Positions 59,709 to 64,000 of a DNA stretch of 64,000 nt are shown here, piece after piece. How positions within the stretch are numbered: the first letter of the stretch is position 1; each line of letters opens with the position of its first letter. Source of the stretch: Streptomyces dangxiongensis (GTDB taxonomy: Bacteria; Actinomycetota; Actinomycetes; Streptomycetales; Streptomycetaceae); the NCBI RefSeq assembly GCF_003675325.1, contig NZ_CP033073.1, forward strand, positions 930,001 through 994,000. Reading direction: 5' to 3'. The notes below the pieces were generated by a model. The model saw only the letters and a list, made by a program, of their open reading frames with translations. It was not told where the DNA came from and made no database searches. The position numbers were made by a program, and so were the translations under genes.

Positions 59709-60191
59709 TCAGGCCCGCAGCCACTCGGTGACGATCACCTCCGCGCCGGTGCGCAGCCGCAGGGCGAACGGGCCGGCCGGTGGCGTGTGGCTGGTGAACC
59801 GGCCGAGGGCGTCGGCCGCGACCGGGCGCGGGGTCCGGGGGCCGTCGAGCACCTCGATCCGGGCCGGCTGCGGCGGCAGCACCTGACCGATCAGTCCGTC
59901 GGCGGTGACCTCGACGTCGACGCTCACCTCGCCCGCCCGGAACGTCAGCATGCGCGGCGCGTCCATGACTCCCCGGACCGGCAGCGCGTCCACGAGCGAG
60001 TCGAAGGTCAGCTCGGCGAGCCGGGCGTCCAGGTCGTGCAGGGCGTAGGCGTCCAGGGCGCTCTGGAGCAGTTCGGCCGGGACGGGGTCCAGGACGGCGG
60101 CGGCCTGGCGCAGTTCCTCCTCCAGCAGCGTGTCCGCGTGCGTGTCCTCGTCCGGGACCGCTTCCCGGCGCAGCTCGTCGTCGCCGTTCAC
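59709..60191 (-). CDS. Small protein coupled to the sigma factor, unknown (possible anti-sigma or protease target)
   Basis: 160 residues. GTG 60191 overlaps the sigma factor stop by four bases (GTGA). The N-terminal half is acidic and helical (DTLLEEELRQAAAVLDPVPA, LDARLAELTFDSL); the C-terminal half is beta-rich (RMLTFRAGEVSVDVEVTADG, FALRLRTGAEVIVTEWLRA), like a small beta-sandwich. No membrane segment, so not a classical membrane anti-sigma factor. Tight coupling to a sigma gene and to a protease gene suggests it controls the sigma factor or is cleaved by a protease of the unit; both are inference. Confidence 0.75.
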   Translation of the reverse strand: MNGDDELRREAVPDEDTHADTLLEEELRQAAAVLDPVPAELLQSALDAYALHDLDARLAELTFDSLVDALPVRGVMDAPRMLTFRAGEVSVDVEVTADGLIGQVLPPQPARIEVLDGPRTPRPVAADALGRFTSHTPPAGPFALRLRTGAEVIVTEWLRA

Positions 60192-60763
60192 ACCACACCC
60201 CGTGTGTCCATCCGGGCCCGCAGCCGGCGCAGACAGCGCTGGCGCAGCGGGCCGATGCTGCCGACCGCGATACCGAGGGCGGCGGAGATCTCGCCGTAGC
60301 TGGGCGGCGGCGAGGCCATCAGCACGCGCAGCAGTTGCCGGCAGCGCTCGCCCAGTGAGTCCAGCTCCTGCCAGAGCCGGCGGATCCGTTCGGCCCGGTC
60401 CGCCGCCTCCTCGTTGTCGATCAGCGACTCCTCCGGTGTCCGGTCCTGGCTGGCCCGGTCGAGAAGCTGCGGATCGTCGGTCAGGGTGAGCCGCGTCAGT
60501 TGTCTGAGCACCTTCAGGCATTCATGGCGGGCGGTGCTGGCCAGCCAGGCGGCGGTCTTGTCGGGCTCCCGGATCCGCCCCAGATGCTGGGCGAAGCGGA
60601 ACCACACGGTCTGGAAGACCTCGTGCCCGTCGGCGTCCGAGAGCCGGTGTGCGCGCACGACCGACCACACCAGCGGACTCAGCCCTTCCACCAGCGCCTT
60701 CCAGGCCGCGGCGTCCCCGTCGACGGCGGACTGGACCAGCGCGCCGACCTCTGCTCGGTCCAC
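60188..60763 (-). CDS. ECF-type RNA polymerase sigma factor
   Basis: 191 residues from GTG 60763, preceded by AAGGGGTGGAGCC. An upstream in-frame ATG at 60826 overlaps the protease stop (ATGA) and may be used as well. Region 2 shows LSPLVWSVVRAHRLSDADGH, EVFQTVWFRFAQHLGRIREP and DKTAAWLASTARHECLKVLR. Region 4 shows LDSLGERCRQLLRVLMASPP, PSYGEISAALGIAVGSIGPL and RQRCLRRLRARM. It should direct polymerase to a small gene set, perhaps including this cluster. It lies between a protease gene and the small protein gene in one coupled transcript. Confidence 0.92.
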   Translation of the reverse strand: MDRAEVGALVQSAVDGDAAAWKALVEGLSPLVWSVVRAHRLSDADGHEVFQTVWFRFAQHLGRIREPDKTAAWLASTARHECLKVLRQLTRLTLTDDPQLLDRASQDRTPEESLIDNEEAADRAERIRRLWQELDSLGERCRQLLRVLMASPPPSYGEISAALGIAVGSIGPLRQRCLRRLRARMDTRGVV

Positions 60764-60822
60764 GGCTCCACCCCTTGTGTACGGCACGTCATCGTACGCC
60801 GCGGAGCGGAGGGTTCCGGCCG

Positions 60823-62247: not shown

Positions 62248-62323
62248 GTCGTGTTCTCCCCCTCGGGACGGTGTCCGACAGTGAGAGTCGCGGGACCACC
62301 GTCTGATACAGCAGGCCACTACC
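62248..62323. promoter_or_regulatory. Divergent promoter region of the protease/sigma and TPR genes
   Basis: Only 76 bases separate the two start codons. On the plus strand GATACA near 62305 could be a -10 for the TPR gene. No palindrome is obvious. Joint control by the encoded sigma factor is plausible but unproven. Confidence 0.4.
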
Positions 62324-64000
62324 ATGCGAGACGTGACAGCGGGAAGCGAGTCGGTGCTCGAACTGCTGCCCATGGTGTTCGCCGATCCGGGCGAGGCCCG
62401 GGCACGCGCGGAACACGTCCTGCGCTCCGCCGCGCCGCCGTTGCACGCCAGCGTGGCCCACCAGGTACTCGGCATCTGGCAGCGGGACTTCGGCGACCTG
62501 CGCATCGCGCTCCGGCATCTGCGGCGGGCCCGGGACCTGGCCGCGCGCGCCGAGTCGGCCGACCGGGAGGCCGATGTGCTCGCGACGTTGGGGGTCGCAC
62601 TGGTGCACGCGGGGCGCACGCGGCAGGGGCTCGCGTCGTTCGAGCGGGGGGTCGCCCGGGGCAGCGGGCACACCCGGGCCCGGGTGCTGTTCCGGCGGGC
62701 CTACGTGTGGTGGGTGCTGGGGCGTCACCGGGAGGCGCTGGAGGACGTCCGGCGGGCGCTGCCGGTGCTGCGGCAGGTCGGTGACGACATCTGGACCGCG
62801 CGGGCGCTGACCCTGCGGGCGACCGTGCATCTGGCGCTCGGGGCGGTGGACCGGGCGGTCGCGGACTTCACGGCGGCGGAGCGGCTGTGGGACACCACCG
62901 GCCAGGAGCACGACAAGGCGGACGCGGTGGAGAGCCGGGGGCTGGCCGCGTTCCGGTCCGGGGACATCCCCGCGGCGCTGCGGCTGCTGGACGAGGCCGA
63001 GGAGCGGTACGCCAAGCTGGGCACGCCCACCTACAACCTGTCGATCCGGCGGTGCGAGGTGCTGATGGCGGCGGGGCTCGCCCCGGAGGCGCTGGCCGAG
63101 GCGGACGCGGCCGGCGCGGTGCTGGACCGGATCGGCGGGCAGTCCACCCGCAGGGCCGAGCTGCTGCTCGCGGCGGCGCGGGCCGCCCGCTCGGCCGGGG
63201 ACCCGCACACCGCGACGGCCCGCGCCGCCGTCGCCGTACGGCTGTTCGCCGCGCAGCGGCGGACGTGGTGGGAGACGCACGCCCGGCTGGTGCTGATCGA
63301 CGCGCGGGTGGCGGCCGGGCGCCGGTCGGGGCGGCTGGTCGGGGACGCGGCGGCGGTCGCCGAGCGGCTGGCCTCCTTCGGGTCGCCCGCCGCCCCCGAG
63401 GCCTCGCTGCTGGCGGGCCGGATCGCGCTGGAGCTGGGCTGGACGGCCGACGCCGAACGACATCTGGCGGTGGCCGCCCGCAGCCGCAACTGCGGGCGGC
63501 CACCGGCCCGGATGACCGGCTGGGCCGCGCAGGCGCTGCGGGCGCGGGCCGCCGGTTCGCGGCGGGGCGTGCTGGAGGCGTGCCGGCGCGGCCTGGCCGT
63601 GCTGGACGACCACCGGATGACGCTGGGCGCCTCGGAGCTGCGCGCCCACGCCACCGCGCAGGGCGCCGAACTGGCCGCACTGGCACAGGAGGTGAGCCTC
63701 GCCCAGGGCAGTCCGCGGCGGCTGCTGGTGTGGAGCGAGCGGTGGCGGGCGACCGTGCTGTCCGCGCCGCCGGCCCGGCCGCCGCACGATCCGGCGCTGC
63801 TGAGCGGGCTGACCGCCTACCGGGAGATCGCGGCCCGCGCGGAGGCCGCCCGGATGGAGGGCCGCCCGGTGCCGGCGCTGGAGCGTGAACAGCGGCGCCT
63901 GGAGCGGGAGATCCGCTCCCGGACCCGGCACATCGGCGGTGCCGCCGCCGGCGCGGGTGACCGTTTCGACGTGGCCCGGCTGCTGGACCGGCTCGGTGAC
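62324..64000 (+). CDS. Long TPR protein, N-terminal part, probable CHAT-protease protein, runs off the right edge
   Basis: Open from ATG 62324 to the window end (559 residues, no stop). It is built from tandem helical pairs of TPR type, for example [40 protein letters not shown] and RAYVWWVLGRHREALEDVRR. The late part (LLVWSERWRATVLSAPPARP, ALEREQRRLEREIRSRTRH) matches my memory of Streptomyces CHAT-domain proteins just before the CHAT (caspase-like) protease domain, which would lie beyond 64000. The CHAT domain itself is not seen here. Divergent from the S8 protease gene. Confidence 0.8.
   Translation, partial: MRDVTAGSESVLELLPMVFADPGEARARAEHVLRSAAPPLHASVAHQVLGIWQRDFGDLRIALRHLRRARDLAARAESADREADVLATLGVALVHAGRTRQGLASFERGVARGSGHTRARVLFRRAYVWWVLGRHREALEDVRRALPVLRQVGDDIWTARALTLRATVHLALGAVDRAVADFTAAERLWDTTGQEHDKADAVESRGLAAFRSGDIPAALRLLDEAEERYAKLGTPTYNLSIRRCEVLMAAGLAPEALAEADAAGAVLDRIGGQSTRRAELLLAAARAARSAGDPHTATARAAVAVRLFAAQRRTWWETHARLVLIDARVAAGRRSGRLVGDAAAVAERLASFGSPAAPEASLLAGRIALELGWTADAERHLAVAARSRNCGRPPARMTGWAAQALRARAAGSRRGVLEACRRGLAVLDDHRMTLGASELRAHATAQGAELAALAQEVSLAQGSPRRLLVWSERWRATVLSAPPARPPHDPALLSGLTAYREIAARAEAARMEGRPVPALEREQRRLEREIRSRTRHIGGAAAGAGDRFDVARLLDRLGD

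Follow-up and report, generated by a model that had tools for sequence, protein, structure and literature searches.

Near one end of the 64,000-nucleotide stretch analyzed here (contig NZ_CP033073.1, positions 930,001 to 994,000; hereafter the window), Streptomyces dangxiongensis carries four genes encoding a TPR-CHAT protease, a cytoplasmic subtilisin-like protease of family S8, a sigma factor of the extracytoplasmic function (ECF) type and a small protein. With a confidence slightly above even, we read this locus as a cytoplasmic module of the ECF54 type, in which the small protein would be a soluble anti-sigma factor, cut by the CHAT protease directly or via the S8 enzyme so as to release the sigma factor; binding, inhibition, cleavage site, order of the proteases and cue are what we infer. 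The reading builds on the four genes themselves, the intact catalytic residues, the co-inheritance of the set, the adjacency of the sigma and small genes, a common clade of sigma factors, a loop arginine in the small protein and a propeptide-like domain in the S8 enzyme. A preliminary description of this DNA had proposed a switch that needs no CRISPR, the sigma factor being set free by a protease, and this is a good working model, with cleavage and sigma binding as predicted steps. The locus is real, conserved and already named as the context of a sigma group; its mechanism is unproved.

Three genes stand in a row on the minus strand, S8 (60823..62247, 474 residues), sigma (60188..60826, 212 residues) and small (59709..60191, 160 residues from a GTG start), each adjoining pair overlapping by 4 bases. 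The TPR-CHAT gene runs the opposite way on the plus strand (62324..64000, cut by the window end), across a divergent intergenic region of 76 bp (62248..62323). Read past the window in the genome sequence (8.16 Mb, two contigs), this gene ends at what would be window position 64936 (5325-7937 of L009, the stretch extending beyond the window) and encodes 870 residues, its catalytic H743 and C783 lying outside the window. These coordinates bear out the four-gene unit first described, with overlaps of about four bases and a TPR gene divergent by 76 bases.

The arrangement is closely kept among relatives. When genome contigs were scanned with the small protein, 68 loci were obtained, and in 65 of them the CHAT, S8, sigma and small genes follow in the same order and orientation (the remaining three are interrupted by contig ends), which makes the arrangement more than chance. 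The 4-base overlap recurs between the S8 and sigma genes in 53/65 loci and between the sigma and small genes in 44/68, counts that depend on our choice of start codons. Furthermore, in a Planobispora locus (L077) the four genes occur together but the AbsR and amidohydrolase neighbors typical of most Streptomyces loci are missing, so the four genes themselves form the unit. Genus-wide, an even sample of 199 Streptomyces genomes, taken from a larger group, was searched for the small, CHAT and S8 genes (the sigma gene was not part of this search). These were found in 65, 64 and 64 genomes, respectively, and nearly always all or none: 63 genomes have all three, 133 none, and 3 are fragmentary, namely G432 (a short fragment with a stop), G396 (a 79%-complete genome with CHAT from contig base 5) and G539 (1040 contigs, with S8 from contig base 163). 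In G432, a piece of about 60 residues of the small protein with an internal stop (C1:905920-906099) is the sole match, neither CHAT nor S8 being matched at the thresholds used; it is probably a decayed copy. Each positive genome gives a single match to the small gene, and likewise to CHAT save for one split gene, in G490 (C1:7723450-7726051), which occupies two overlapping frames (residues 1-419 and 418-867) through sequencing error or a real split.

Beyond the genus, a profile built from 40 small proteins was used for a phylum-wide genome search, which found the family in 51 of 396 genomes at E 1e-6 (7 of them Streptomyces) and, in one other class, in 22 of 66 genomes at E 1e-3. Neighborhoods from 39 of the 44 non-Streptomyces genomes, plus two more from the 66-genome class search, gave 46 distant loci, some genomes contributing two or three and L144 being omitted for its overlap with L127. 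Genes were called by script and searched with our own profiles, and the search was repeated in six frames, which added a sigma gene in L126 and an S8 match in L138 overlooked by the gene caller. For L143, L148, L150, L151 and L154 the gene calls were used, as the six-frame distance test fails there (partial gene match or small gene under threshold), and a sigma match had to reach E 1e-20 to count as a module sigma, which left out four rows. On this basis, 42 of the 46 loci have the sigma gene, 32 CHAT, 30 S8 and 30 all four (41, 32, 29 and 28 by gene calls alone). The sigma gene lies directly 5' of the small gene, on the same strand, in all 41 loci with a called sigma and also in L126 (42 in total). 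Proximity is likewise marked: among the 271 called genes lying within three genes of the small gene there are 32 CHAT, 29 S8 and 41 sigma genes, against 3, 1 and 0 among the 386 farther away. Around this pair, CHAT and S8 change places; some examples are S8-sigma-small-CHAT, sigma-small-CHAT-S8, and CHAT-sigma-small with a divergent S8. An association that outlasts such reshuffling is strong evidence of joint function. The joint conservation on which the preliminary description hinged is thus found in close loci (65/68), across the genus (63 genomes with all against 133 with none) and at a distance (30/46 with all four).

At its end the TPR protein has a genuine CHAT domain, as had been suspected from its truncated part. 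Pfam recognizes TPR_12 (E 1e-10) and CHAT (E 7e-29, residues 621-868), and the His/Cys dyad H743/C783 is identical in 20/20 aligned rows (16 distant) and in 59/59 close homologues. Compared with PDB chains, a profile of the CHAT region matched chains named "CHAT domain protein" (E 1e-6), which we take to belong to Craspase entries, one chain named Csx29 (E 5e-5) and one named TPR-CHAT (E 1e-3), as well as another CHAT protein, 8rot (E 5e-11); His and Cys are both aligned in all five alignments printed. Judged by these profile matches (E 1e-6 to 1e-3), the domain is homologous to that of the Craspase TPR-CHAT chains. Length variants also occur: CHAT proteins of 910-1088 residues in L051, L055, L061, L068, L070 and L071 have extra sequence before the catalytic His, which is retained, and in five further genomes the match is limited to residues 1 to 684-714, in long frames.

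The second protease matches Pfam Peptidase_S8 (E 3e-18). Its triad, on the minus strand at D163 (61759-61761), H200 (61648-61650) and S410 (61018-61020), is identical in 23/23 aligned rows (13 distant), with one of 63 close homologues gapped at S410. The full triad reported at first is therefore present, and the lack of a signal agrees with our reading of the sequence, in which the N-terminus does not look hydrophobic (judged from the sequence itself, without a signal-peptide program). The AlphaFold2 model (predicted template modeling score, pTM, 0.90) has an N-terminal beta-alpha-beta-beta-alpha-beta domain like the subtilisin propeptide, and its top Foldseek matches include pro-subtilisins, some of them unautoprocessed (E down to 3e-15). 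On this model, the enzyme is read as a zymogen-like protease built like a pro-subtilisin, without a visible export signal and with predicted inhibition by the N-terminal domain.

Some features of the S8 family vary between lineages. A Cys-rich insert (61066..61155, minus strand; residues 365-394, of low model confidence) is seen in the Streptomyces and Planobispora form and is missing from the 13 distant S8 proteins aligned. Its C365, C373, C375 and H380 are kept in 62/63 Streptomyces-type proteins, the remaining one being gapped, and the insert is possibly a metal or redox site near the active serine. C128 and C325, in turn, are kept in 63/63. In 13/32 called distant S8 genes (one a duplicate via overlapping loci), the catalytic domain is preceded by tandem repeats of 18 bp, each unit coding for six residues: L112:13636-15012, L121:13429-14829, L124:4916-6322, L126:9956-11479, L127:3696-5591, two genes of L128, L129, L130, L131, L135 and L144:7644-9380. 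The unit varies by locus (NPAYQG, GGTPYP, PFTSGG, PMYDGH, PFWGGH, YGDGVG and others) at constant period, in 3 to 11 copies, and these exact six-residue repeats sit at the propeptide/catalytic junction. The S8 of the window has no 18-bp tandem repeat.

The sigma factor has regions 2 and 4, as stated in the preliminary description: Pfam detects Sigma70_r2 (E 8e-9), and region 4, below the Pfam cut-off (E 0.066), is covered by TIGR02937 (E 2.7e-19, residues 41-205). A tree built with 17 further ECF sigmas from the window's genome places the 45 module sigmas (41 distant) together in a single clade (support 100/99); the module sigmas were picked by similarity, which favors this grouping, and only part of the genome's sigma factors was included, the outgroup being 17 of 30 own-genome sigma loci (matches >560 bases excluded) from the 80 matches listed. 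A sigma profile compared with PDB sequences gave no match at E 0.001, and no natural sigma-small fusion was noticed in the distant loci.

The small protein is proposed to be both a soluble anti-sigma factor and a protease substrate. Its model (mean predicted local distance difference test score, pLDDT, 87) comprises two N-terminal helices, an 11-residue coil loop (residues 69-79) and a C-terminal Ig/transthyretin-like beta-sandwich. Within the loop, whose coil is variable in length and otherwise poorly conserved, residue 73 (codon 59973..59975, minus strand), often in the context V-R-[GST], is Arg in 115/116 homologues (one of the 68 small proteins, for which the start choice gave >220 residues, and L144 were omitted); R73 is the proposed scissile residue. 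The sole exception, L137, comes from G382, a genome with no detected module-type CHAT, one case that proves little. Relatives match Pfam CarboxypepD_reg weakly, 3/4 in one set (best E 4.5e-4) and 10/10 in another (E 2e-5 to 0.1), always below the cut-off. A CarboxypepD_reg-like domain is not a peptidase (Pfam describes it as regulatory-like), and what the ECF54 literature calls a "carboxypeptidase" is probably the small protein, which would not be an enzyme. Besides, the N-terminus is extended in 12 distant members and bears a motif near D-W-x-EGRL-x-x-x-EA. Ten of these proteins were scanned in Pfam, and four gave sub-threshold anti-sigma matches, three to zf-HC2 (E 0.015-0.1) and one to RskA_N (E 0.043). 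When compared profile to profile with an alignment of nine zf-HC2 matches from the window's genome, the distant N-terminus scores 28.9, against maxima of 15.6 for 200 column shuffles and 16.6 for 79 other alignment windows; hhalign gives a probability of 77-85 at defaults, with which the shuffle null was made, and of 36 with an added option. The zinc ligands present in the nine zf-HC2 proteins are absent from the distant small proteins.

In the mechanism that we propose, the small protein and the co-translated ECF sigma factor would bind each other, keeping the latter inactive. The TPR part of the TPR-CHAT protein may sense a cue and activate the caspase-like protease, which, alone or by activating the pro-subtilisin-like S8 enzyme, would cut the small protein, most likely after Arg73 in the loop between helices and beta-sandwich; the sigma factor so released would transcribe its regulon. 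Which of the two proteases would act first is guesswork. An arginine before the cut is common among CHAT-fold relatives such as separase and gingipain R.

Several observations weigh against this mechanism. Neither Pfam nor NCBIfam recognizes the window's small protein, and no PDB fold matches its model significantly (best E 0.078). The Pfam anti-sigma matches of the distant small proteins are all sub-threshold, and the N-terminus of the Streptomyces-type family, which has no anti-sigma-like part, scores 8.7 against zf-HC2, no better than chance. In 4/46 distant loci (L110, L119, L132, L134) the available stretch holds the small gene without a sigma of this group; CHAT is absent from the stretch in 14/46 and S8 in 16/46, some stretches ending at contig ends. 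Among 15 genomes searched throughout, most of them with a small gene without adjacent CHAT, a module-type CHAT was found somewhere in 12 and not in G386, G269 and G382, and R73 is kept in G386 and G269. Finally, in the three Craspases studied, the cleavage sites are A|S, L|D or M|K, non-conserved and not after Arg (PMC11106740).

A rather unlikely alternative is the ECF54 idea in its plain form, with the proteases degrading or processing the sigma factor itself, no anti-sigma factor being involved and the small protein serving as adaptor or co-activator. That the window's small protein is devoid of a recognizable anti-sigma domain is in its favor. On the other hand, the link to sigma is closer for the small gene than for the protease genes (small next to sigma in 42/46 distant loci), the 12 distant members have their anti-sigma-like N-terminus, and the near-invariant loop arginine belongs to the small protein; all three speak against this alternative.

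The surroundings of the locus link it to published work in Streptomyces coelicolor. Beyond the TPR-CHAT gene lie equivalogs of AbsR2 and AbsR1, and on the far side of the small gene an N-formylglutamate amidohydrolase. AbsR1 and AbsR2 are SCO6992 and SCO6993 in S. coelicolor (PMC9705864), and the locus is orthologous to SCO6994-SCO6997 beside them: SCO6995 has been described as a putative intracellular serine protease (PMC2936110) and SCO6996 as a sigma factor, detected in the proteome (PMC9739823), with the numbers SCO6994 (CHAT) and SCO6997 (small) following from gene order; in the literature searched, no mention of the latter two tags was found. The AbsR1 of the window's genome (L009:9787-10875, beyond the window) has the astacin-like motif HQxxHxxGxxHE, with Gln for the catalytic Glu of HExxH. 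This agrees with a published result, the lack of protease activity in recombinant SCO6992 (PMC9705864). In or beside the S8/CHAT divergent region, TGTATCA and ATGGTAGTG stand out as conserved elements in a partial alignment of 66 loci. An autoregulatory promoter there was considered and dropped, as no -35 and -10 boxes with sensible spacing could be fixed, and no claim is made for an AdpA site, since all matches to the consensus had one or two mismatches.

It is unlikely that the proteases are instead outputs, with the sigma factor and small protein controlling S8 and CHAT expression and the targets being other cell proteins (in development, programmed lysis or nutrient recycling). In favor of this reading, SCO6995 mRNA falls in adpA mutants of S. 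coelicolor, and extra SCO6995 expression, like that of another protease gene, inhibited antibiotic production, in data not shown by the authors (PMC2936110); in addition, S8 is the first gene of the operon that includes sigma, and the intergenic region before it is also that of CHAT. Against this, several distant genomes hold the sigma-small pair away from CHAT, and the idea accounts neither for R73 nor for the association of the small protein with CHAT and S8. Those published effects of SCO6995 point to development and antibiotic control, and place the system in development and metabolism rather than defense. A defense module, in which an invader cue would activate CHAT and the freed sigma factor would turn on defense genes, does recall Craspase in its parts (the CHAT profile matches; PMC10028731), yet such a module, with the threat sensing suggested in the preliminary description, is very unlikely: for the four proteins PADLOC returned nothing beyond a generic subtilase match, conserved chromosomal genes make up the flanks (AbsR1 or AbsR2 within 8 kb in 53/68 related loci), positive Streptomyces genomes hold one match each to the small gene and, save the split gene, to CHAT, a scan of viral contigs found no close relatives of the small protein, and a plasmid set gave one chromosome-sized record. 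On the same PADLOC, flanking-gene, viral and plasmid results, a defense island was rejected. The plasmid-set record is from Nonomuraea, with no annotation in that stretch.

Contrary to the preliminary description, which could name no published account, the gene association is not new: a 2022 review gives carboxypeptidase, subtilase and CHAT proteins as the ECF54 context and, citing Casas-Pastor 2021 and Huang 2015, states that proteolytic control without an anti-sigma factor had been proposed (PMC8999054). The present analysis contributes candidates for the anti-sigma factor and for the cut site, and a second protease that is zymogen-like. Within the literature searched by locus tags and by CHAT plus sigma factor, no experimental study of the four genes together was found. 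More broadly and quite tentatively, ECF54 loci could be a general CRISPR-free protease-cascade switch of actinobacteria, with a TPR-CHAT sensor-protease and a cytoplasmic pro-subtilisin acting one after the other on a soluble anti-sigma factor, the cut following a near-invariant Arg; the output arm of Craspase might then be a recruited relative of such housekeeping modules, and the six-residue repeats of distant S8 enzymes tunable activation sites. If so, caspase-like control of transcription would be common as an internal signaling device in a large bacterial phylum, not a peculiarity of CRISPR, and one could test where the Craspase output arm came from. The conserved locus beside the antibiotic-regulating region of S. 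coelicolor would also gain a testable function, the antibiotic effect of SCO6995 being so far unexplained. The prediction is sharp: one arginine in a 160-residue protein.

The locus can be set beside several known systems. With subtilisin zymogens, the window's S8 enzyme has the catalytic triad and the propeptide-like fold in common. The small gene stands next to the sigma gene in 42/46 distant loci, and its product is predicted to bind the sigma factor as anti-sigma factors do; the N-terminal domain of zinc-binding anti-sigma factors (anti-sigma domain, ASD) is not found in the family of the window's small protein and has a zinc-ligand-free form in 12 distant members. The proposed logic, a protease removing an anti-sigma factor, is that of membrane anti-sigma proteolysis of RseA and RsiW (PMC10028731), whereas here all four proteins look soluble and cytoplasmic by sequence and the proteases belong to the CHAT and S8 families. 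ECF54, whose prototype is SFT86700.1 of Geodermatophilus, is matched by CHAT and S8 beside an ECF sigma factor, with the "carboxypeptidase" represented only by the weak CarboxypepD_reg matches of relatives; it was printed without an anti-sigma factor, while here a small protein with a CarboxypepD_reg-like beta-sandwich is proposed for that role. The closest mechanism is that of Craspase (type III-E CRISPR), in which Csx29, a TPR-CHAT protease, cleaves Csx30, the inhibitor of an ECF sigma factor (PMC10028731), and the window's TPR protein too is a TPR-CHAT protease with a His/Cys dyad. In contrast, no Cas7-11 is among the identified neighbors (AbsR2/AbsR1 and formylglutamate amidohydrolase; a genome-wide Cas7-11 search was not made), no Csx30 appears among the PDB sequences matched by the small-family profile up to E 10 (the presence of Csx30 in that set was not checked), a second protease (S8) takes part here, and a near-invariant Arg stands against the non-conserved cleavage site reported there (PMC11106740). 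The locus is a parallel to Craspase, not a member of its kind and not a CRISPR system.

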